From Tolumonas osonensis (GTDB lineage Bacteria; Pseudomonadota; Gammaproteobacteria; Enterobacterales; Aeromonadaceae), in contig NZ_JACHGR010000005.1 of the NCBI RefSeq assembly GCF_014202415.1, positions 1-64,000 on the forward strand: a DNA stretch of 64,000 nt, read 5' to 3'. Within the stretch, counting starts at the first letter, position 1. Each line of letters opens with the position of its first letter. The notes below the pieces were generated by a model that was given only the letters and a program-made list of their open reading frames with translations, ran no database searches and was not told the origin of the DNA. Positions 1-10,521 of the stretch are shown one piece after another. The position numbers were made by a program, and so were the translations under genes.

Positions 1-250
1 TTTCTGATTGGTTTTCTGTGTTCATAGTTATAAGCTCACTCTGCCTTGCTATACGGGCTCGAGGCCCCGATGACTGTCCGAGTTATCGCTAAAGAATTAT
101 GCAGCGCTCACACTTGTTATCGGTCTCTCAATGAGGAGCCAAACTTGAATCGAGCTACTGCATAAAGGCCCTCAACGGCCATTGAGGGTGGGCCTCTAAT
201 TTACCCGTTTTACTGAACACATTAACCATACAAAAATTTAAAGCTGGACG
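1..250. other. Left flank of the IS element, no gene recognised
   Basis: I see no credible coding region here. The stretch holds one perfect 7-bp stem with a 6-base loop (arms 169-175 and 182-188) that could be a weak terminator or a remnant of a recombination site. It lacks a clear T-run. Bases 221-233 (ATTAACCATACAA) recur at 4358-4370, at the same distance from a copy of the IS left end. Confidence 0.5.
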
Positions 251-278
251 TGGACTTCACCCACTTTTTCGGACACGC
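251..278 (+). repeat. IS left inverted repeat (IRL)
   Basis: Starts TGGACTTCACCC and ends CGGACACGC. It matches the reverse complement of 1491-1518 in the outer TG, the TTCACCC block and the final ACACGC block. Confidence 0.85.
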
Positions 279-304
279 ATTGATAACTAAAACAGAGGTC
301 ATCA

Positions 305-649
305 ATGCCTGCTTATACAAACCCTAAACGTATTTTTAAGTACTCCGACGAGTTCAAAATGAAAGCCGTCCAATGGAGTTTTGATCCCGAGCGCAGCGTC
401 AAAGAAGTCGCTGCTGCGCTGGACATTCATCCTTTTATGTTGTCTCGTTGGCGTAAAGAATTTCGTGAAGGTAAGTATGGTCCCATGAAGTCCACAACCA
501 AATCAGCGAAACCCAACGCTCAGCTCAAAGAGCAAGATGAACTGAAAAAACTCAGAAAGCGCATTGCTGAACTTGAAGAGGAAAATGACATCCTAAAAAA
601 GTGGCAACGCTTTCTGGCCGAGGAACGGCGGAAACCTTCCGGTTCATAA
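305..649 (+). CDS. IS3-family transposase OrfA
   Basis: This 114-residue protein is the DNA-binding half of the transposase. It has the usual OrfA layout: a helix-turn-helix at about residues 12-50 (FKMKAVQWSF, then SRWRKEF) followed by a leucine-rich coiled coil at about 75-105 for multimerisation. The frame ends at 649, inside orfB. At 595-601 lies the heptamer A AAA AAG in the orfA reading phase, so a fraction of ribosomes should slip -1 and produce the OrfAB fusion. Start ATG 305 is preceded by GAGG at 295-298. OrfA alone usually acts as a repressor or partner in IS3 elements. Confidence 0.9.
   Translation: MPAYTNPKRIFKYSDEFKMKAVQWSFDPERSVKEVAAALDIHPFMLSRWRKEFREGKYGPMKSTTKSAKPNAQLKEQDELKKLRKRIAELEEENDILKKWQRFLAEERRKPSGS
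595..601 (+). promoter_or_regulatory. Programmed -1 ribosomal frameshift site (A AAA AAG)
   Basis: The heptamer AAAAAAG sits in phase X XXY YYZ for orfA. The downstream orfB frame is -1 relative to orfA and open across the overlap. This is the classical IS3-family signal for making the OrfAB transposase. Confidence 0.85.
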
Positions 650-1485
650 AAAAACAGGCTCATCGTCTTTCTGTGGCCCGTCTCTGCCAACGGCTGGGCG
701 TTTCTCGCAGTGGTTATTATGACTGGCTGAAGCGCCCGCCCAGTGCTCATGAGCAACAGGATGCTGTATTACTGATGCATATTCGTCGCGTGTTCAAAGC
801 ATCTTCGGAACGTTACGGCAGTCCTAAAATTTATCAGGTACTTCGCTCAGAAGGCATTGTCATTAGTCGTAAGCGCGTTGCCAGATTAATGCGAGAAAAT
901 GGCTTAAAAGCTCGTGTTGAGCGAGTTTATAAGCGATTGAACAAGCTGCGGGCTGAATTAAAAGTGCTGCCGAATCATCGGTTACAGACACCGAAACCAA
1001 CAGGACCAAATCAACAATGGTCCAGCGATGTCACGTATATCCGTCATGGTCGCAGACATGTGTTTCTCGCAGTAATTGTCGATCTCTGGTCCCGAAAAAT
1101 TATTGGTTGGGCACTCCATGAAAAGCTCAATGCTGAATTGTCAGTAGCGGCTTTATATAAGGCATTGAAGCAACGGAAACCGAAACCAGGTCTCCTTCTT
1201 CATACTGACCGTGGCGTTGAGTTCAGAGCGCAAGCCATGCAAGTCTGGCTGAATAAGTTTGGTATTCGGCACAGTATGAACCGACCAGGTCAATGTACTG
1301 ATAATGCAGAGGTTGAATCGTTCTTTAAGACTTTAAAATCAGAACTGATTTACGAAAATTATTTTCCAACTGTAGCTGCATTGCGAGAGCAGATCAGTGG
1401 ATACATTCGGAATTTTTATAATAAGGTGCGGCTGCACAGTAGTTTGAATTACGTATCTCCGATACAGTTTGAACATGCCGCTTAA
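601..1485 (+). CDS. IS3-family transposase OrfB (DDE catalytic domain)
   Basis: The 294 residues carry an HTH_21-like region at about 45-105 and an rve-type integrase core at about 130-285. The catalytic triad is visible as D143 (SSDVTY), D203 (HTDRG) and E239 (AEVESF), with the D(35)E spacing typical of IS3. It is probably translated mainly as OrfAB through the slippage site at 595-601. The GTG at 601 may serve as an independent start but falls inside the slip site itself. All three acidic residues are present and there is no internal stop, so the transposase looks functional. Confidence 0.9.
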   Translation: MATLSGRGTAETFRFIKKQAHRLSVARLCQRLGVSRSGYYDWLKRPPSAHEQQDAVLLMHIRRVFKASSERYGSPKIYQVLRSEGIVISRKRVARLMRENGLKARVERVYKRLNKLRAELKVLPNHRLQTPKPTGPNQQWSSDVTYIRHGRRHVFLAVIVDLWSRKIIGWALHEKLNAELSVAALYKALKQRKPKPGLLLHTDRGVEFRAQAMQVWLNKFGIRHSMNRPGQCTDNAEVESFFKTLKSELIYENYFPTVAALREQISGYIRNFYNKVRLHSSLNYVSPIQFEHAA

Positions 1486-1490
1486 TAAAC

Positions 1491-1518
1491 GCGTGTCCGT
1501 TTTATCGGGTGAACATCA
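1491..1518 (-). repeat. IS right inverted repeat (IRR)
   Basis: Read on the minus strand it begins TGATGTTCACCC and ends ACGGACACGC, matching IRL at 251-278. Confidence 0.85.
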
Positions 1519-1634: not shown

Positions 1635-2366
1635 ATGAGTGATTGGGATTTCCTTTATGATATGAATGCTCGCGGTTTCAGTTCCTCTGAAATTGCTGAT
1701 GCCGCTGCTTGTGGTTATGCCCCTTGGGAATATATTGACGACGATGATGAATGTGAAGAACAAATCCAATCAACTGTAGAACCCAAAAAGAAAAAAAATA
1801 AGCAGAAACAACAAATTAGCTACTCGCAAGCTTTTAATACCTTTGAATATTCCATCAAAGACGCTACAGAACTTCTAGATCATTTTGATTCCATTAACAC
1901 AAATCCACCTCCAAGTAATGCTGAAGTATTAAAAAGAGCTAGCCTAATAATGGCATTGGCGGCTCTAGAGACATATATAGAAGACAGAATTACAGAGGCA
2001 GCAAACAAAATTTCGACTAATAATGATGAAAATAAAAAATTACAGTCATTTTTTACAAGGTCGTTGCAGCATGATCTAAAAACATTCCATACACCTAGCA
2101 CTGACCGAATAAAGTCCATTTTCGTGAAATACTTTGATATCGATGTAACCGAAGGCTGGGTTTGGAATAACGTAGATCAAAATAAAGCCAAATCTGAACT
2201 CAATAAAGTTGCAAAAAAACGTGGTGATATAGCACACCGGTCTCTTAGACCACAGCCAGGACAACCAATGCCTCACGCTGTCACTCGTGAAGAATTGTCA
2301 AAACATATTAGATTTATTTGTAATTTAGTTCTTGCTACAGAAAAGTTCCTATTTGAAAAAATTTGA
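1635..2366 (+). CDS. Putative HEPN-domain protein (RiboL-PSP-HEPN-like RNase candidate)
   Basis: This 243-residue protein has an acidic, low-complexity N-terminal part (residues 1-65, with DDDDE and a lysine run). An all-helical C-terminal domain from about 66 follows. The C-terminal domain contains LETYIEDRI near 111-119 and RGDIAHRS, giving R196-x4-H201. That spacing is the catalytic Rx4-6H signature of HEPN ribonucleases. HEPN proteins of this kind commonly act in toxin-antitoxin or antiphage systems, but no partner nucleotidyltransferase or antitoxin lies beside it. AAGGGA upstream of ATG 1635 gives a plausible ribosome site. The gene is much more AT-rich than the core genes and sits between two attC-like sites, consistent with a mobile cassette. 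Function beyond the motif is inference. Confidence 0.6.
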   Translation: MSDWDFLYDMNARGFSSSEIADAAACGYAPWEYIDDDDECEEQIQSTVEPKKKKNKQKQQISYSQAFNTFEYSIKDATELLDHFDSINTNPPPSNAEVLKRASLIMALAALETYIEDRITEAANKISTNNDENKKLQSFFTRSLQHDLKTFHTPSTDRIKSIFVKYFDIDVTEGWVWNNVDQNKAKSELNKVAKKRGDIAHRSLRPQPGQPMPHAVTREELSKHIRFICNLVLATEKFLFEKI

Positions 2367-2400
2367 TGCTAAAGCTCATAATATCTCGGCAAACAGCACA

Positions 2401-2451
2401 ATAAAAACTTGGTATGGGACCGCTCCGCGGCCCCACAAGTAAAAGTTAAAC
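2401..2451 (+). repeat. attC-like recombination site
   Basis: The site has a GGGACCGC/GCGGCCCC stem (2416-2423 and 2427-2434, one A-C mismatch, loop TCC). An outer ACTTG/CAAGT pairing (2407-2411 and 2436-2440) flanks it. The 3' core GTTAAAC (2445-2451) fits the integron GTTRRRY consensus. The matching left core (RYYYAAC) is not clear. It shares 17 exact bases with 1531-1547. It lies between the HEPN gene stop and the next start, as expected for a cassette junction. Confidence 0.5.
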
Positions 2452-2472
2452 CGTTTCCTGGATTCAAAATTT

Positions 2473-3174
2473 ATGAATAATCAAATCAAAACTATCTATC
2501 AAAAACTTTTTGATTCGTTGATAAGTTCAAAATACAAAGGAAAAGACAAAAAACTATGTTTATTTAACGCTCAAGTTGGTAATCAATATGATAAAAAACT
2601 AATGATCGTTGGTAGAGCCGTAAATGGATGGAGTAATGAATTTACAATCAACAATATAAATAACACAGAACTATTAAGTGCATTAGATACACCAAAAACA
2701 TCTGAATGCCCACTAAAATGGATTATTAACACCTCAAATGAAGATGAAGGTTACAATTCAAATAGGTCTGCATTTTGGCGTATTGCTAAAAAAACAGCCT
2801 TTCATCTGAATCCTAAGTTATCAAATGATAGCTGGTCTTCATCGATTGTTTGGTCAAACTTATACAAAATTGCACCAAGTGCAGGTGGTAATCCATCTGA
2901 TTCCTTATGTGATCTACAATTCCAATTTTGCAATAAGATATTGCAGTTAGAAATTGAGTTATATAAACCAAAATATATTTTATTTCTTACTGGCATTAAC
3001 TGGTTCAATGGTTACCTTGAAGAAAATAATTCATTTAAAAACAATCTAGAATATAAATACATAGATGCAACAGGCACTTATTTGTCATCAAAAATCATTA
3101 TTGCCAAACACCCACAAGGCAAACCAGAGGATATTTTTATTTCTGAACTATCAAAAGCGTTTTCAACGGTTTAA
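2473..3174 (+). CDS. Unknown cassette protein, possible uracil-DNA-glycosylase-like fold
   Basis: I do not recognise this 233-residue soluble protein with certainty. It has a hydrophobic strand followed by VGRAVNGW near residue 50, then WSNLYKIAPSAGGNP near 130, YKPKYILFLTG near 170 and IIIAKHPQGK near 210. That order resembles uracil-DNA glycosylase superfamily folds, which have a glycine-rich loop, a central strand and a late H-P motif. The canonical catalytic residues are not evident. Its stop codon lies inside the left core of the next attC-like site, a typical gene-cassette arrangement. No Shine-Dalgarno is visible before ATG 2473. It is strongly AT-rich like its neighbours. The fold assignment is a weak inference. 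Confidence 0.45.
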   Translation: MNNQIKTIYQKLFDSLISSKYKGKDKKLCLFNAQVGNQYDKKLMIVGRAVNGWSNEFTINNINNTELLSALDTPKTSECPLKWIINTSNEDEGYNSNRSAFWRIAKKTAFHLNPKLSNDSWSSSIVWSNLYKIAPSAGGNPSDSLCDLQFQFCNKILQLEIELYKPKYILFLTGINWFNGYLEENNSFKNNLEYKYIDATGTYLSSKIIIAKHPQGKPEDIFISELSKAFSTV

Positions 3175-3245
3175 CAACCAATTTAAACTCGTTCGCTTTG
3201 CTCACTGGACGGCACTTCGTGCCGCCGCTTAATTGAAAGTTATGT
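3169..3245 (+). repeat. attC-like integron recombination site
   Basis: This is the best attC candidate in the window. The left core is GTTTAAC (3169-3175), and L'' AATTTAA (3180-3186) carries one extra base relative to L' TTAATT (3229-3234). The right core is GTTATGT (3239-3245). Between the arms is a perfect CGGCAC-TTC-GTGCCG hairpin (3210-3224). The unpaired base in L'', the overlap of the upstream stop codon with the left core, and the next start four bases after the right core are all usual for attC sites. The right core deviates from GTTRRRY at one position. Confidence 0.65.
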
Positions 3246-3248
3246 TTA

Positions 3249-3539
3249 ATGGAGATATATGTGGGTATACGTGAGATATATGCGCTCGGAACTTACGGCA
3301 AAGTCAAAGGTAAAAAATTTAAAGCTAGAAAAAATAGCAAAGGTTTCTATATTTTAAACAAAAAAGCTAAAGAAGATGGTGTCAATACTACTAACAGAGC
3401 AAAAAATATTGTTTTGGTTGAAACACTCGAAGATGCTCTTATTCTGCTCAAAACAAATGATTATCTAATAAATTTGGTTTGTGACGATAATACAAGAGCA
3501 TTAAGAGAGTACACCAAAGTCGTAGTGGATTTTTATTGA
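3249..3539 (+). CDS. Unknown 96-residue cassette protein
   Basis: I do not recognise this small basic protein. It has a lysine-rich N-terminal half (KVKGKKFKARKNSKGFY) that reads like a beta-rich fold, and a C-terminal half with VETLEDALILLK. No transmembrane segment or signal peptide is seen. The start lies immediately after the attC-like right core. The stop is 10 bases before the start of the Mrr-like gene, so the two could be co-transcribed within one cassette. It could be a regulator, immunity factor or accessory of the nuclease, but nothing in the sequence shows this. Confidence 0.6.
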   Translation: MEIYVGIREIYALGTYGKVKGKKFKARKNSKGFYILNKKAKEDGVNTTNRAKNIVLVETLEDALILLKTNDYLINLVCDDNTRALREYTKVVVDFY

Positions 3540-3549
3540 GGTTGTCCAA

Positions 3550-4362
3550 GTGACTATCGTTGAAGCAATTACATCTGTTCTAAAGTCCCAAAATAAGCCT
3601 CTTACTTACAAACAAATATACAATTTTATTATAGAAAATAATCTATATTCATTTGGTGCGAAATCTCCAGAAAGCATAGTAAATAATAAGCTAAGGAAAC
3701 ATTGTTTCGGCTTAGACTTCCCATCTGCAAGTCCTGAAAAATTTTTCATTATTAGTTCAATCGAAAATGAAACTAGATACTTTTTATATGACAAAAATAT
3801 AAATGAGCAAATAATTCCGAAAACAAAAGCACCAATTGATGCCGAAAAATTACCAGAAGAAAAATTAGAGGATGCCTACACTCATCATAGAGAAGGCATA
3901 AAAATTAGTTTACTTGAGCAAATATTACAATCTCCCCCATCATTCTTTGAAAGATTAGTTGTCGATTTACTTCTTGCCATGGGCTATGGCGGTGATTTTA
4001 AAGATGCAGGTATTGTTCAAGGTGGTACTGGTGATGGTGGTATCGATGGTGTAATTAAAGAAGACAAACTAGATCTTGATAAAATTTATATACAAGCAAA
4101 ACGATATACAGATAAAAAAGTTGGTAGACCAGAGTTACAACAATTTGTTGGGGCTATGGAAAATGTGCAAAAAGGCGTTTTCATAACAACTTCTGGCTTT
4201 AGTGCTGGTGCTATTGAATATAGTAAAAAACAACAAAAAAACATCGCATTAATTGATGGCACTGTTTTATGTGATTTGATGGTTACACATGGTGTTGGTG
4301 TGTCAAAATTAAAAACTTATACAACATTTCGTGTTGACTCTGATTATTTTAGTGATAATTAA
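3550..4362 (+). CDS. HARE-HTH plus Mrr-like restriction endonuclease
   Basis: The 270 residues form two domains. Residues 1-75 match the HARE-HTH pattern (ISVLKSQNKPLTYKQIYNFI style, then the SPESIVNNKLRKH element), a helix-turn-helix found in DNA-modification sensing proteins. Residues 125-250 form an Mrr_cat-like PD-(D/E)xK nuclease: FERLVVDLLLAMGYGG, then GGIDG with the catalytic Asp, then YIQAKRY with the Q-x-K. Mrr enzymes cut modified foreign DNA (type IV restriction). GTG 3550 is the chosen start, 10 bases after the preceding stop. It is AT-rich like the rest of the cluster. The specificity for a modified base is unknown. Confidence 0.8.
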   Translation: MTIVEAITSVLKSQNKPLTYKQIYNFIIENNLYSFGAKSPESIVNNKLRKHCFGLDFPSASPEKFFIISSIENETRYFLYDKNINEQIIPKTKAPIDAEKLPEEKLEDAYTHHREGIKISLLEQILQSPPSFFERLVVDLLLAMGYGGDFKDAGIVQGGTGDGGIDGVIKEDKLDLDKIYIQAKRYTDKKVGRPELQQFVGAMENVQKGVFITTSGFSAGAIEYSKKQQKNIALIDGTVLCDLMVTHGVGVSKLKTYTTFRVDSDYFSDN

Positions 4363-4401
4363 CCATACAAGTGACTGTAGATTTTAGTGGACTTCACCCA
4401 C
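4358..4401 (+). repeat. Second copy of IS left tip with matching flank
   Basis: ATTAACCATACAA (4358-4370), 17 unrelated bases and then TGGACTTCACCCAC (4388-4401) reproduce the arrangement at 221-233 and 251-264 with identical spacing. The rest of an IS does not follow. It is either a remnant of a second IS copy with its flank or a repeated target. The first block overlaps the end of the Mrr-like gene. Confidence 0.6.
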
Positions 4402-4555
4402 AATCCAAAGTCATAACAATGGACAAATCTCCGTGTTTGCCCATTATCAAAATATATCAGAAGCTCATGCCCATATTACAACCGTCAGGTCATTGAGCAT
4501 CAACCACCAACTTCCTCCCCCATTGCCTCAACACAACATTTCAGCATGAAAAAAG
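4402..4555. other. Intergenic stretch with one imperfect hairpin
   Basis: No gene is seen. An AATGGACAAA/TTTGCCCATT stem (4418-4427 and 4436-4445, one mismatch) might be a degraded cassette end or a terminator, but it lacks a T-run. The mukB-like homology begins at 4556. Confidence 0.4.
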
Positions 4556-4802
4556 GCAGCTTCGGTATTACCACCGAATCCACGCAGACCGACTACATGG
4601 ACATGTTCCTGCTTGCCATGCACCTTACGGATCAGTTTATACGTTGTGCCTTTTTCCGGACTGATATTTTCCGGTGCCGCAATCAGCAATTGTATATCCT
4701 GCCGTTCACACAACTCGAACAGGGCCGCAATCGACCTTGCATCCAGACGAGCTGCTTCGTCCAAGAACAGCAGGCGGCAAGGTTCCCGATCACTGCTGCG
4801 CA
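4556..4802 (-). pseudogene. mukB': Detached 3' end of a mukB homolog
   Basis: These 247 bases align without gaps to 6083-6329, the last 82 codons of the intact mukB. By my hand count there are about 22 mismatches (about 91% identity), and only four change the protein (L to R, K to R, T to A, M to I). The fragment begins just before the Walker B segment [11 protein letters not shown]. It lacks the rest of the ATPase and the original stop, reading on through about eight unrelated residues. The excess of synonymous changes suggests it came recently from a functional mukB in a related organism rather than by decay of a local duplicate. It lies in the same orientation as mukB, 1.3 kb downstream. 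Confidence 0.9.
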
Positions 4803-5028
4803 TGTGGTTCCATTGTCCGATCACAAATTCTGCTTACACAGATCTTATCGATATTAAAGAACAATATATACTTGAAAGTGTTGAACATATTGGTGAGAAA
4901 CATGTTACTGATATTTTTGAGCACATTGAAAAGCTCCCTATACACCCCCCATATGGATCGCATTGTTTATCTTGTGAGATGCTGACTTACCCCACGAACT
5001 CAAGTTGGGAGTATCCGGAGAGGATGAA
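4803..5028. other. AT-rich stretch between the mukB fragment and the Na/Pi gene
   Basis: No complete gene is visible. A plus-strand frame through about 4830-5025 gives a protein-like stretch (IDIKEQYILESVEHIGEKH, then VTDIFEHIEKL) without its own start. It may be the tail of a gene whose 5' end was replaced by the mukB fragment. GGAGAGG at 5017-5023 is the ribosome site for the next gene. Confidence 0.35.
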
Positions 5029-5973
5029 ATGGATATACAGGCAACCAGTCTGCAGACTTTATTCGGCGCCCTCTCCGCGATTATCCTGTTTATCTACGGA
5101 CTCCAAGGATTTAGCCGGGAGTTGCGGGCTGTCGGTGGACTTGCCCTGCAATTCTGGCTTGGGCGAGTGACGGCGAACCGTTGGCTCGGCTTCACCGTCG
5201 GTGCGCTAGCTACTGCTGTCGTGCAATCAAGCAGTGCAATCACGTCTTTGACTGCGGCCTTTGTCGATGCGTCAGCCATCTCGTTCCGTGCCAGTCTCGG
5301 GGTATTGCTGGGGTCCAATGTCGGCACGACCGCAACAGCCTGGCTAGTATCACTCAAACTTACAGATATCGGTCCATTCTTTATTGTTCTGGGTGCACTT
5401 ATATCCATACTGCCCAAGCGAGTGAGCGTGATTGGAAAAGCTGTCTTTTATTTCGGACTGATCTTCTTTGCGCTTGATCTCATTTCAGCAGAACTAACGC
5501 CGCTTCGCGAACAACCTGAATTCTCCAAATGGCTCTCCCTTGCTCAGGCACCATGGCTGGGCTTGGCCACCGGCTTGGTGTTCACCGCGCTTGTTCAATC
5601 GAGTAGCGTAACAACCGGGGTCACTATCCTGTTAGTACAGCAGGGAATGTTACCCGCTGAGTCAGCGATACCCATCGTGGTAGGAGCCAACGTTGGGTCG
5701 ACTTCGACAGCATTGCTAGCGAGTATCGGGATGAACGCTGTAGCCCGTGCAACTGCAATAGCCAATTTCCTGTTCAATGTCGCCGGCGCGGTTATCTTCT
5801 TCCCATTCTTGCAGCAGTTCGCTCACGCAATGGTGCAGCTTGCTGGAGATCCTGGCATGGCTGTCGCCTGGGCGCATCTGCTCTTCAATCTGACAACCGC
5901 GCTAGTGTTCCTTACTTCCATGGACTGGGTAGAGCCTCGGCTCCAAACGTTGCTGTTACGAAATCGTTCTTGA
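5029..5973 (+). CDS. Na/Pi-cotransporter II-related membrane protein, short form
   Basis: The 314-residue integral membrane protein has about eight to nine hydrophobic segments. It also shows the two inverted repeats that define the Na/Pi-cotransporter family: VVQSSSA at about 65-71 with GSNVGTT at 95-101, and LVQSSSV at about 189-194 with a later GANVGST. In family members these QSSS repeats form the sodium- and phosphate-binding core. The C-terminal PhoU-like domain found in YjbB-type proteins is absent. I choose ATG 5029 because GGAGAGG lies 5 bases upstream, although the frame also opens at TTG 5005. Its base composition is higher in GC than the cassette genes. It stands alone between two mukB 3' ends, so it is part of the inserted DNA. 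Phosphate or phosphonate export or uptake is inferred only. Confidence 0.82.
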   Translation: MDIQATSLQTLFGALSAIILFIYGLQGFSRELRAVGGLALQFWLGRVTANRWLGFTVGALATAVVQSSSAITSLTAAFVDASAISFRASLGVLLGSNVGTTATAWLVSLKLTDIGPFFIVLGALISILPKRVSVIGKAVFYFGLIFFALDLISAELTPLREQPEFSKWLSLAQAPWLGLATGLVFTALVQSSSVTTGVTILLVQQGMLPAESAIPIVVGANVGSTSTALLASIGMNAVARATAIANFLFNVAGAVIFFPFLQQFAHAMVQLAGDPGMAVAWAHLLFNLTTALVFLTSMDWVEPRLQTLLLRNRS

Positions 5974-6039
5974 AATTGATGATAAATACAGACAAAGGAT
6001 AAATATCGTATTCTGGTTGGCTCAATCGGCGAGTTAGAA

Positions 6040-6072
6040 TCAAAAACAAAAGGCAGCCTCGGCTGCCTTTAG
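6040..6072 (-). terminator. Terminator of the mukB operon
   Basis: Perfect 10-bp stem AAAGGCAGCC/GGCTGCCTTT (6049-6058 and 6061-6070), followed on the minus strand by TTTTGTTTTTG. It begins about 9 bases beyond the mukB stop. Confidence 0.85.
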
Positions 6073-6078
6073 ATTCTG

Positions 6079-9000
6079 TCATGCGGCTTCGGTATTGCCC
6101 CCGAAACCACGCAAACCGACTACATGGACATGCTCCTGCTTGCCATGTACCTTACGGATAAGTTTATACGTCGTGCCTTTCTCCGGACTGATGTTTTCCG
6201 GTGCCGCAATCAGCAATTGCATATCCTGTCGTTCACATAATTCGAACAGGGTCGCAATCGACTTGGCATCCAGACGGGCTGCTTCGTCCAGGAACAGCAG
6301 GCGACAAGGTTCCAGATCACTGCTGCGCAGACGACGATTTTCATCTTCCCAGCTCTGCAGCACCATCAGCAGAATAGCCTGACCCGTACCGATAGCCTCA
6401 CCGGTAGACAGTGCCCCACTCTCGGCCCGTAACCAGCCATCCACACCACGTAATACCTCAATTTCAAGTTCAAGGTAGTTGCGGTAATCCAGCAAGGCCT
6501 CGCCCAGTACCTGGAAGCTGCGGTCACCCTGATCGATATGCGGATTCAGGCGTTGGAACAGCTTGGCCATCGCTTCAGAGAAGGTCAGCTCGTTGCTGGA
6601 GAACAGATCCTGATGCTGCTGCGCATGTTCACCCAATGTTTGCAGTAAACGGGCATACGCCTCACGCACATTCACATTCAGACGCACACCACGGACCTGA
6701 CCGAAGGTAATATTCTGCAATCCCTGGTTCATAACGCGGATACGGTTCTGTTCCCGGCGAATAATATTCGTGATCTTCGCGGCCACTTCATGCGATGACA
6801 GGGACAGATGCGTTTCGCGCTGTTTTAGCTCATCCGCCAGACGTGCCAGCTCAATTTCCATTTCCTCGATCGCATCAATCGGATCATCCGAACGGATGAT
6901 GTCATGACGGATACGATCCTTCAGATAACGGTAAACCTGAATATAGAACTGTACCTTCTGCTCCGTCTGACGATTCCCTTCTGATAACCGCAGACTGTCG
7001 CGCAATGAGTCGTCACCCGCTACCGCCAGACGTAAGGCGCCAAGCGATTTATCGGACATGGAACGCAGATCTTCCGCTTCCAGATAAGCCAGTTCACGGC
7101 GGTTGAGTTGCTTCTCGACATTGTTGGTCCGGGCCAGTGACAGAACCCGGCTCCAGGTTTTCTTATGTTCCAGCAGCAGATGCCGTGCGGCGCGATACTC
7201 TTTGTTTTCCGAGTTAAAACGCTGATTCAGGCTGTCGATATCACGCCGGCAGATCTGGTATTGCGTCTCAGCCTGCGTACGGCGACTGCGGGTACGCACC
7301 AACTGATCTTCAAGATCACGTTTTTTGCTTCTCGCCTGATCTTCCATATCCGTCGCAACCTGCAGACCCATTTGCTGCAATTCACGCTCGAATTCCTGCA
7401 GCGTCTGTGTTTTTGCCTGCAAGCTGGAATTCAGTGCTGTCTGCACCTGGATCGCGTCCTGATACCGCTGAGCGATCTGTTTTAATTGCTCGGTCAGCTG
7501 ACGACGTAACTGCTCGGCATCCGCTAGTTTCTGTTTCAGACGTTCGCTGATCTCGGAAGTCTGACCCAGCAGGCTTTCCGCGTCGTGGTAGGCAAAATAG
7601 GCTCGGCGGGCAAAGAGTTCATCCAGCGCAAAGGCCTGACGACGAACCTCGGTCAACTGCTGCTCGGCAGCGAAGCCTGCCTGCTGCAATTCATCATAGG
7701 CAGCCGGATCTTCACGTAATACATCCAGCATCGTTTCCAGCTGACGGCATGCTTTATCGTGTTTATCCAGGAACTGCTGTGCCTGCTGGCAGGATTCAAG
7801 TTCTGTCTCGGCCTGCACCAGCCGTTCACTCAGTGAGGTATCAAACAGCAGACTGAACTGCGACTGCAGACGAACAACCAGTTGCTGTTGCTGCTGCAAG
7901 GCAGTCAGACGCTGGCGATATTGATGTTCATTCTGCTGCTGTTGCTGCAGATTATGTTCTGCCTGCCGAATTTCGGATTGTAAAGCCGCCAGGGCCGCTT
8001 CCGGATCATCCTCAAATGCCACATGCAGATGTTCCGTCATGAACTGGCTCAGGTGATGATACAGGCGGTTCTGTTTCTGCTGTTCAAACGCGGCTTTGGC
8101 ATAAGCCTCAACGATTTCATCACGCTGCGCAGACAGCAGTTCAATACGTTGCTCCCGCGCCGCCCGACCGAATACCGGTACTTCCGGATAACGCGAATAA
8201 CGGATTTCACGCTGACTGGTCCGCACCAGCACGGCTTTATCAAACTCGCTGGCGTCATGCAGATTTTCATCGAAGGCATCCGGATTACCCTGAATCAAAT
8301 AGATATCGTCAGGCAAATCCGTCAAGGTGTTCAGCTGCGTGATGGCACCGTCCAGATCCATAACGACAATCGCACTGCGTGCCGGTCCGAACAAGGCGGA
8401 ATAGTACGGCGCATCGTCGAGAGAGATATCGTCGTAAACATCGGTCAGCAGCACGCCGCCCAATTGCTCACAGATACGAACCAATTGCGGATCTTCGTTA
8501 CCGGCAAATTGCTGCAGATTGCGGAGCTGCTGCTCTAGCGACTCTTTCTGCTGCTGCAGCCGGTGCTTTTCCTGTTCCAGACGACGTTCTGATTCCAGCG
8601 TGCGCTGCAACAACTGACTGATGGCCACAGGCGATTCCAGCGTTTCGCCGGTCATCTCCTGCAATTTATCCAGTTTTTCATGCGCCACCAGCCAGGCGGG
8701 TGCTTTCTTGCGCAGTTGCTCGATCTGCTGACGCGTCGCATCCAGCTGGTGATGTACGCGGATGCGATCCTGCTGATCATGCTCCAGCTTCTGCTGCAGC
8801 GTATCCTGCTGTTCTGTTAATGCGGCGGCTAACTCACCGAGTTGCGCATTATCCGTCAGGTCATAGTGATTACCCTGACTTTCCAGCTGGCGTAACAGTT
8901 GTTCCTGAATGGCAATCAGGGCATTTTGCTGTTCAAGATCGCGGCTGATATCCTGCAGAGCCCGTTCAGCCTGCTGACGACGAGCAATCGCAGTCCGGTA

Positions 9001-10521
9001 GCTCCGGGCCTGTTCAATCACGCTTTGCGCCTGTTCCCATGCCTGTTCGCGGGAAATCGGGCCGGTGATTTGCTGTAACGCAGCAAATGCTTTTTCATAC
9101 TGGTCTGCAGCCGCTTTGGCCAGTCGTAACCGTTGTTGCAATGACAACACCTGATCGGTCGCCTGCTGTTCCTGATCACGCAGCGTTTGCTGGAAACCAA
9201 CCACATTGTCCGGTGTCAGATCCGGTAGGTCACACAGCTTCTGCGCCTGTTCCAGTGCATTCACTGCCTGACGGTACTGAATTGCCCGCGTTTGCTGTAC
9301 ATCCAGCGCCTGCTGATAGTCTGCCAGCTGACTTTTCAGGCTGTCGGCTTCATCTTCACTTTGCGCCTTGCGTAATTCCAGCTCGGTTTTTTCTTCAGCC
9401 AGTTCAGCCGTAATCGCAGACTGTTCTTCGGCTTTCAGCGTCAGCTCTTCAACATCTTCCCGGTACTGGACGATCTTGTTGGTCAGGCCGGTGGCTGCCA
9501 TCACCTTGGCCAGATGTTCTGCGGCTAGTTCCAGATCTTCCGTCAGATGTTTTTCGCGTGCAGTCATCTGTTCAGCTTCTTCCGCCAGATAGATTGCCCG
9601 CTGTTTTTCTTCACGGATCAAACGCTGCTTGTCCTGCAACTGCTTACGCCCCTGCAGCGCCAGCTCGGACAAACGCTGTTTCTCGCTCTGATTCCGCACA
9701 TAGTCCGCAGCCACGTAATTCGTGGTTTCAGTGATCAGATGGCGGAACAAGTCGCGCTGCGTCTGCGTCTCTTTAATCGCATCCAGCGTCCGGCGGTTTT
9801 CATGAATCGCCGCTTCCATATCCTGGAAGGCCTTACGCACACCGGAGTTTTCCGGCAACAGATATTCACGCAGGGAACGGCTGATGGAAGAAGAAATACC
9901 ACCGTACAGTGATGCCTCGATCAGGCGATAGAATCGGGAACGATCACGCTGATCACGCAGCTTCTTCGCGGTAACCCCGTATTCGAACATGACGTTGTGA
10001 TAATCGGTCACCGAATTGAATTTCACAAAACGGATGGCACCCAGCTCGGCCGCGTATTTGCGCAATTCATTGAACGGACGAACCTTTGCTTTATCCCCGT
10101 CCAGCTTTTCCAGAAGAAAATCGGTAGGTTGCAAATTTTCCGGTACATCCAGCATACAGAATGGCGTGATATTGACTTTATTATCACGGTTAGCCACCTG
10201 CTCCAGATGCACACCAAACCACAGGCGCTGGCCTTTGGAGTTACGGACATCAATCATCGAATAGCAATGACCACGCTGCAGTTTGCCGTACAGCCCGCGG
10301 TCCCGGCTGGCAGAAGAACTGCCCGCCTCTGTGGTATTACGGAAATGCAGCAAAGTCTGGTCGGGAATCAGTGCCGTGATCAGCGCCGCCATACTGGTCG
10401 ACTTACCCGCACCGTTACCGCCGGATAATGTTGTCACCATCTGATCCAGTTCAAAGGTCCGGGCAAAGAACCCGTTCCAGTTGATCATGGTGAAAGAGAG
10501 AAATTTACCACGCGTGATCAT
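6079..10521 (-). CDS. mukB: Chromosome partition protein MukB
   Basis: MukB is the SMC-like ATPase of the MukBEF condensin, which compacts and segregates the chromosome and works with topoisomerase IV. At 1480 residues it matches the usual length of about 1486. The N-terminal head has Walker A GGNGAGKS at residues 34-41. Long glutamine-rich coiled coils flank a central hinge at about 645-785. The C-terminal head has LSTGEAIGTGQ near 1366 and Walker [13 protein letters not shown] near 1405. The start overlaps the mukE stop by 4 bases, so translation is coupled. The last 82 codons are duplicated at 4556-4802. The gene is intact. Confidence 0.98.
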   Translation of the reverse strand: MITRGKFLSFTMINWNGFFARTFELDQMVTTLSGGNGAGKSTSMAALITALIPDQTLLHFRNTTEAGSSSASRDRGLYGKLQRGHCYSMIDVRNSKGQRLWFGVHLEQVANRDNKVNITPFCMLDVPENLQPTDFLLEKLDGDKAKVRPFNELRKYAAELGAIRFVKFNSVTDYHNVMFEYGVTAKKLRDQRDRSRFYRLIEASLYGGISSSISRSLREYLLPENSGVRKAFQDMEAAIHENRRTLDAIKETQTQRDLFRHLITETTNYVAADYVRNQSEKQRLSELALQGRKQLQDKQRLIREEKQRAIYLAEEAEQMTAREKHLTEDLELAAEHLAKVMAATGLTNKIVQYREDVEELTLKAEEQSAITAELAEEKTELELRKAQSEDEADSLKSQLADYQQALDVQQTRAIQYRQAVNALEQAQKLCDLPDLTPDNVVGFQQTLRDQEQQATDQVLSLQQRLRLAKAAADQYEKAFAALQQITGPISREQAWEQAQSVIEQARSYRTAIARRQQAERALQDISRDLEQQNALIAIQEQLLRQLESQGNHYDLTDNAQLGELAAALTEQQDTLQQKLEHDQQDRIRVHHQLDATRQQIEQLRKKAPAWLVAHEKLDKLQEMTGETLESPVAISQLLQRTLESERRLEQEKHRLQQQKESLEQQLRNLQQFAGNEDPQLVRICEQLGGVLLTDVYDDISLDDAPYYSALFGPARSAIVVMDLDGAITQLNTLTDLPDDIYLIQGNPDAFDENLHDASEFDKAVLVRTSQREIRYSRYPEVPVFGRAAREQRIELLSAQRDEIVEAYAKAAFEQQKQNRLYHHLSQFMTEHLHVAFEDDPEAALAALQSEIRQAEHNLQQQQQNEHQYRQRLTALQQQQQLVVRLQSQFSLLFDTSLSERLVQAETELESCQQAQQFLDKHDKACRQLETMLDVLREDPAAYDELQQAGFAAEQQLTEVRRQAFALDELFARRAYFAYHDAESLLGQTSEISERLKQKLADAEQLRRQLTEQLKQIAQRYQDAIQVQTALNSSLQAKTQTLQEFERELQQMGLQVATDMEDQARSKKRDLEDQLVRTRSRRTQAETQYQICRRDIDSLNQRFNSENKEYRAARHLLLEHKKTWSRVLSLARTNNVEKQLNRRELAYLEAEDLRSMSDKSLGALRLAVAGDDSLRDSLRLSEGNRQTEQKVQFYIQVYRYLKDRIRHDIIRSDDPIDAIEEMEIELARLADELKQRETHLSLSSHEVAAKITNIIRREQNRIRVMNQGLQNITFGQVRGVRLNVNVREAYARLLQTLGEHAQQHQDLFSSNELTFSEAMAKLFQRLNPHIDQGDRSFQVLGEALLDYRNYLELEIEVLRGVDGWLRAESGALSTGEAIGTGQAILLMVLQSWEDENRRLRSSDLEPCRLLFLDEAARLDAKSIATLFELCERQDMQLLIAAPENISPEKGTTYKLIRKVHGKQEHVHVVGLRGFGGNTEAA

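Follow-up and report, generated by a model that had tools for sequence, protein, structure and literature searches.

Why does the genome of Tolumonas osonensis carry, beside an intact mukB gene, a second and diverged copy of the end of that same gene, with unrelated DNA between the two? The window considered here (the whole stretch of DNA that was analysed, 64,000 nucleotides) comes from a draft genome of 3.29 Mb, in which it forms the beginning of contig C5, and the features on and around the two mukB ends are the following.

4387 to 4550, minus strand: 3' end of a HigA-like (HTH) antitoxin gene with its downstream sequence, on the 3' side of the mukB copy
4556 to 4802, minus strand: orphan copy of the end of mukB; identity 91.1%, stop codon of mukB lacking, four codons replaced
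4802 to 4972, plus strand: decayed start of a phd-type antitoxin gene and piece of a parE-type toxin gene, carrying internal deletions; it directly adjoins the mukB copy where the latter is truncated on its 5' side
5029 to 5973, plus strand: intact Na/Pi symporter gene, 314 aa from the ATG at 5029 (a longer ORF starts from the TTG at 5005), convergent with mukB
6041 to 6078, minus strand: terminator-like hairpin of mukB (inverted repeat I19, and sequences after mukB in relatives)
6079 to 10521, minus strand: intact mukB (NCBIfam PRK04863, MukB, residues 1-1477), of which 6083 to 6329 is the repeated part

The repeated mukB end and its neighbours

The two ends form a gap-free direct repeat of 247 nt with 225 identical positions (blastn E about 1e-97), the 22 mismatches being distributed 3/2/17 over the first, second and third codon positions. 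The first-pass annotation had described a repeat of about 91% with mostly synonymous changes, its copies lying 1.3 kb apart in direct orientation with a Na/Pi-type gene between them, and this description holds; the gap measures 1,280 nt and contains the decayed phd/parE piece as well. The gene at 6079-10521 is intact, with a product of 1480 aa that the NCBIfam MukB model matches at 2013.6 bits, and it has the same length in the related genomes G007 and G002. The copy is a dead fragment, on which the 3' arm of the terminator-like hairpin may survive.

Most of the gap between the two ends is taken by the Na/Pi gene, whose product matches Pfam Na_Pi_cotrans and exceeds the cut-off of the NCBIfam subfamily model Na_Pi_symport; it is near full length against the 308-position family model, below the cut-off of that model. 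The GC content is 53.7% for this gene, 53.4% for mukB and 30-36% for the four cassette ORFs further along. No match was found in the ten other genomes of the genus, several of which are incomplete, and no origin was found in wider searches, where the best other match was 41% in 75 genomes of the family and 45% both in 394 genomes of the order and in 369 genomes of the class, every match among 408 matching plasmid records being below 60%.

Read in the sense in which mukB is transcribed, the gene with its terminator-like hairpin is succeeded by the Na/Pi gene on the opposite strand, the decayed phd/parE piece and the mukB copy; past the copy come the antitoxin remnant (3' end and what follows it), 15 nt left of an IS3 end and an Mrr-type gene. 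The copy is thus bordered on both sides by truncated toxin-antitoxin genes. The phd/parE piece is recognisable because intact pairs exist in four loci of the same genus (L018 to L021), which it matches at 25 of 26 nt and at 80-83% over a further 149-150 nt; in L018, the intact antitoxin belongs to the Phd/YefM family (phd_fam, PhdYeFM_antitox) and the toxin matches Pfam ParE_toxin. The junction at 4802 is abrupt, the similarities to mukB and to the antitoxin sharing a single nucleotide, as in a joint made with little or no homology. On the other side, the remnant at 4387-4550, for which the name higA is our own label, ends at its far side in the IS3-end remnant (4387-4401, a 15-nt exact match). 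It is 74% identical to another place in the same genome (C1:406778-406946); there, genes for an HTH antitoxin and a HigB-like Gp49 toxin have as neighbours an attC-like site and the IS3 end seen here, and an intact HTH_3/Gp49 pair is present in locus L069. A search for the origin of 4360-4560 returned no plasmid match and only one other place in the genome itself.

An arrangement of this kind could have been produced by an assembly that joined two strains or two loci, given a draft of 30 contigs with a contamination estimate of 1.22% and a window whose first nucleotides are a contig edge made up of an IS110-type end. The sequences compared contain no long identical repeat near the junctions (26 nt between the two mukB ends, 26 nt with L018 and 15 nt with L069), and we consider an artefact extremely improbable.

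Some prophages inserted at icd carry a replacement gene end, and an integrative element of this kind is expected to leave an intact gene and, in direct orientation to it, a 3' end that is displaced and diverged. The locus has this layout and could be read as the remnant of a site-specific element that used the mukB 3' end as its attachment site and brought a replacement end with it. However, no recombinase gene was found in the 1,280 nt between the copies, where only the toxin-antitoxin relic and the Na/Pi gene were recognised, and the longest stretch that the two ends share without a difference is 26 nt; both findings speak against such an element, which we judge very unlikely. The suggestion that the direct repeats delimit a discrete piece able to excise is not supported on the same two points, and the flanks are truncated toxin-antitoxin genes and not recognisable element ends; rare recombination between 247-nt repeats with 9% mismatch could take place.

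Against such an element also stands that no second genome with two mukB ends was found in the order. Of the 25 matching genomes in a set of 41, one (G004) matched only the 26-nt antitoxin piece and the other 24 matched the mukB end; two mukB ends occur in one of the 24, the present genome, and the extra hits elsewhere are pieces of 26-29 nt. A survey of 394 genomes of the order gave the same picture, with 173 matching the 82-aa end and this genome alone having two. In E. coli, a search tuned to near matches found 722 places in 721 of 5426 genomes (rows listed at 76.9%), one genome having two places. No paper was found that links mukB with an integration site and a genomic island.

Divergence between the two ends

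Over the whole repeat, the copy and the intact mukB differ in 18 codons by synonymous and in four by non-synonymous changes; over the 230 comparable nt, the figures are 16 synonymous changes and four replaced codons. For the same 230 nt, the intact gene differs from G007 and from G002 by 29 synonymous changes each, with one and no replaced codon, respectively. All four replacements lie on the copy, three of them at sites invariant in the ten relatives compared, and the fourth is a K to R change for which one relative has the base of the copy. The changes that could be polarised are few, with seven on the copy, four on the intact mukB and nine undecided, and the four assigned to the lineage of the intact gene are all synonymous third-position changes.

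These numbers bear on the simplest explanation, a partial duplication of the genome's own mukB 3' end followed by neutral decay, which the first-pass annotation had named as the finding that would overturn its view. The intact mukB is indeed the nearest match of the copy, and the IS copies nearby could promote rearrangement. For a neutral duplicate beside a constrained parent, we calculated that about 50-62% of changes should be replacements (four values of transition bias, from 1 to 8), and the probability of four or fewer in 20 differences is then 0.0002-0.0054, the changes being treated as independent. The ratio of synonymous to replacement changes therefore disfavours a plain local duplication with neutral decay, as do the exclusively synonymous third-position changes in the lineage of the intact gene, and we hold this explanation to be unlikely: the own-lineage affinity stands, and the neutral decay fits badly.

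The signal of selection is a mixed one. Since the divergence is mostly synonymous and the replacements are on the copy, it seems that most of it was gathered while both mukB ends were working, and that the copy lost constraint afterwards. With 16 synonymous changes against four replacements and a poor fit of the neutral duplicate, the data point to two ends from different lineages, in agreement with the earlier proposal that the copy has its origin in a related lineage. The comparison with mukB genes of relatives, which had been suggested as a way to find the donor, did not yield one: after the intact gene, the closest sequences are those of G007 (85.8%) and G002 (85.0%). A tree of 12 fragments also places the copy together with the intact mukB, with modest support (81/85) and an unsettled bootstrap. 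Because the copy is nearest to the intact gene by both tree and identity, the other lineage was probably a close, unsampled sister.

The same pattern would arise if the 3' end had been duplicated within the genome and the end of the intact gene had later been replaced by homologous recombination with a sister lineage, the copy keeping the older allele. Such a history predicts a divergence indistinguishable from that of the displacement described below, but it requires two independent events, and the 3' end of the intact mukB has no clear step in identity; it appears quite unlikely, a little below the plain duplication in our estimate. In windows of 247 nt, the intact gene is 81-91% identical to G007, the last two windows being rather higher (89 and 91) and high against G002 too. 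No clear mosaic or crossover step was seen along it against either genome, and a breakpoint is neither shown nor excluded by this comparison.

A proposed displacement of the gene end

The reading that we favour, and which in our view has about as good a chance of being right as of being wrong, is a displacement of the gene end by homology-facilitated illegitimate recombination, the copy being the leftover 3' end of the former resident mukB allele. DNA of a sister Tolumonas, consisting of mukB with its own downstream Na/Pi gene and toxin-antitoxin piece, would have entered the cell and paired with the resident mukB, so that one side was exchanged by homologous recombination while the other was attached by an illegitimate joint at a point within the resident gene, some 250 nt short of the gene's end. 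Homology would have restored an intact mukB; one full gene would have been kept, the Na/Pi gene gained and an orphan tail left behind, which would now be drifting. The repeat with its boundaries, the decayed genes next to it and the mixed signal of selection are observed, whereas the identity of the resident copy, the order of the events and the pairing of one homologous with one illegitimate junction are inferred. The attraction of displacement is that one event accounts for the intact gene, for a tail that is collinear with it and oriented alike, and for the unrelated DNA that separates the two. Against it stands that the copy abuts an antitoxin remnant and not the native downstream gene, so that further rearrangements are needed.

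According to the main rival, the mukB fragment is debris within a foreign mosaic of sister-strain cassettes and toxin-antitoxin relics, joined illegitimately on both sides, the intact mukB never having been exchanged. Both edges of the fragment meet truncated toxin-antitoxin genes, the region is rich in cassette-like genes and IS scars, and the divergence suits an origin in a sister lineage. A random fragment would, however, hardly be expected to come to rest 1.3 kb from its parent gene and in the same orientation, and we regard debris as a possible but somewhat unlikely explanation.

Homology-facilitated illegitimate recombination has been described in three species with natural competence, and in E. 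coli conjugation it has been measured at a low frequency (PMC3240628). The likeness to the displacement proposed here lies in one homologous side, another side joined without homology and a gain of DNA; the difference is that our case is read from one genome and was not selected in the laboratory. Orphan 3' ends in Vibrio T6SS and rhs loci, and also orphan immunity genes, are tentatively attributed to an akin mechanism in PMC5361080, where the mechanism is also called rare. At these effector and rhs loci, an old 3' end is likewise shifted past the gained DNA and kept as an orphan (PMC5361080; PMC2935791); mukB, by contrast, is a conserved housekeeping gene, and the tail therefore adds no new function. 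On this reading, the locus adds one more case to a type of scar already described, and a fairly ordinary one. It resembles what DNA uptake that is partly homologous and partly illegitimate would leave in nature at a housekeeping gene, a process reported from the laboratory and inferred at toxin loci; if true, a conserved gene end can anchor the gain of unrelated genes without damage. Effects on the cell are probably small.

Relatives show what follows mukB elsewhere. In G002, it is a gene for a 304-aa protein that neither Pfam nor NCBIfam models match, with a gene for an aromatic aminotransferase coming next. The 304-aa protein was found in seven of the eight genomes searched, and in five of the seven (G002, G003, G005, G009 and G010) its gene begins within about 100 bp of the mukB match, leaving the junction empty. 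The empty junction that had been called for does exist, then, although in other species and not in strains of this one. In G007, mukB and the 304-aa gene are about 2.4 kb apart, and the DNA between them holds the transposase gene of an ISAs1-family element as well as a trxC-like gene that seems to be truncated. In the present genome these neighbours are split: mukB is found close to where C5 begins, and the other two genes are on another contig (C2:1386-2285 for the 304-aa protein, C2:2402-3589 for the aminotransferase); the starts of C5 and C2 both carry IS110-type sequence, similar to an IS110 element in L020, and judging by the gene order the two contigs would adjoin at these ends. In G007, too, an IS3-end scar and a weak attC-like half site come after mukB, a likeness which suggests that the orphan side is the older downstream side. 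The sequence after the terminator of the intact mukB is not significantly similar to that of G007, 27 of 500 shuffles being as good.

A broader idea, speculative and rather doubtful in our opinion, is that the gap after mukB is a recurrent landing zone for integron-derived DNA in the Tolumonas clade, opened by an IS3-family element, and perhaps also by an IS110-type one, inserting into the apical part of attC hairpins; foreign DNA would enter there by pushing aside the end of a gene that organises the chromosome, whose function would be kept.

Cassette-like units and insertion sequences

Beyond the Mrr-type gene, again in the direction of mukB transcription, there are two further cassette-like units, followed by the IS3 copy and, at the contig edge, by the end of an IS110-type element.

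1 to 233, minus strand: IS110-type element end at the contig edge, 98.3% identical to C7:1-233
246 to 1513, plus strand: IS3-family element (NCBIfam transpos_IS3) between attC-like halves, the left half weak
1635 to 2448, plus strand: cassette-like unit, a HEPN-domain gene (Pfam HEPN_RiboL-PSP) and then an attC-like site at 2400-2448 (attC-like repeats and fold)
2473 to 3246, plus strand: cassette-like unit, a 233-aa gene without Pfam match and then an attC-like site at about 3172-3246 (repeats and fold)
3249 to 4362, plus strand: cassette-like unit, a 96-aa ORF without Pfam match and an Mrr-type restriction enzyme gene (Pfam Mrr_cat; PADLOC mREase_IV)

The attC-like sites were called by repeat matching, by eye and by folding; only two full attC-like hairpins and one clear half site were seen in the window. 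After the unit at 3249-4362 no attC-like site was seen, and IS-end scars, recognised by eye, are found instead. The IS110-type end is 72% identical to the sequence that starts the IS110 transposase gene in L020. CALIN is the term for integron cassette clusters without an integrase; the present cluster resembles them in having cassette-like genes that appear to be separated by attC-like hairpins and no full integrase found in the genome, and differs in that the mukB copy has no attC and that full sites are so few. No full integron integrase exceeded the cut-off in the genome, whose assembly is gapped, or beside the cluster, and six of the 11 genomes of the genus have one; weaker matches include a 59-position N-terminal piece at C5:314759-314935. 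Among the matches listed in a literature search there was no paper on a Tolumonas integron.

Six of the 11 genomes of the genus contain matches to the window's IS3-family element. Integron IS3-family copies of V. cholerae are described within cassettes, one of them in a coding sequence (PMC11023631); attC sites are targeted at one end by some members of the IS1111 family (PMC11187229), and REP palindromes are targets of other IS elements (PMC1525189). Four copies of the present element are complete, in this genome and in G007, and a target duplication of 3 nt borders three of the four; attC-like hairpins are the site of two of these three, and the third is in a hairpin of another kind. The copy in the window has no target duplication and lies between two unlike attC halves, the left one weak. 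When the 11 distinct left ends of the element were inspected by eye, an attC-like half preceded six of them clearly, two weakly and three not.

Cassette-like units and integron integrase remnants

Among the genes of the window's cassette-like units, one encodes a protein with a HEPN domain and another a restriction enzyme of the Mrr type; both have possible roles in defence.

Window 1635-4362: cassette-like units, including these two genes

Six of the 11 genomes of the genus gave an integron integrase match above the family cut-off. In this T. osonensis genome the integrase is reduced to an N-terminal fragment (G000:C5:314759-314935, locus L050), and that of G007, another genome of the genus, was matched as three pieces (G007:C1:791296-792041, locus L051).

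Insertion sequences at attC-like sites

Across Tolumonas genomes, the apical part of attC-like hairpins, which resemble integron recombination sites, is a frequent position of one IS3-family element, three of whose four complete copies in these genomes are flanked by 3-nt target duplications. IS110-type sequence is present at both the start and the end of C5, the contig of the window, and at the starts of C2 and C7.

Window 246-1513; loci L073, L078, L081, L074, L075, L080, L084, L085: IS3-family element
Window 1-233; L018 1-273; L049 1-356; L050 19592-19738: IS110-type sequence

In L018, a locus with an intact phd/parE pair, the end of an IS110-type element, read by eye, directly adjoins an attC-like sequence.

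The mukB end in other genomes

In G007, an apparently truncated trxC-like gene (locus L011, 11712-12068), adjoined by an ISAs1-family transposase gene, separates mukB from its usual neighbour, the gene for a 304-aa protein. A search of E. coli genomes found a single genome in which the mukB 3' end matches at two places rather than one.
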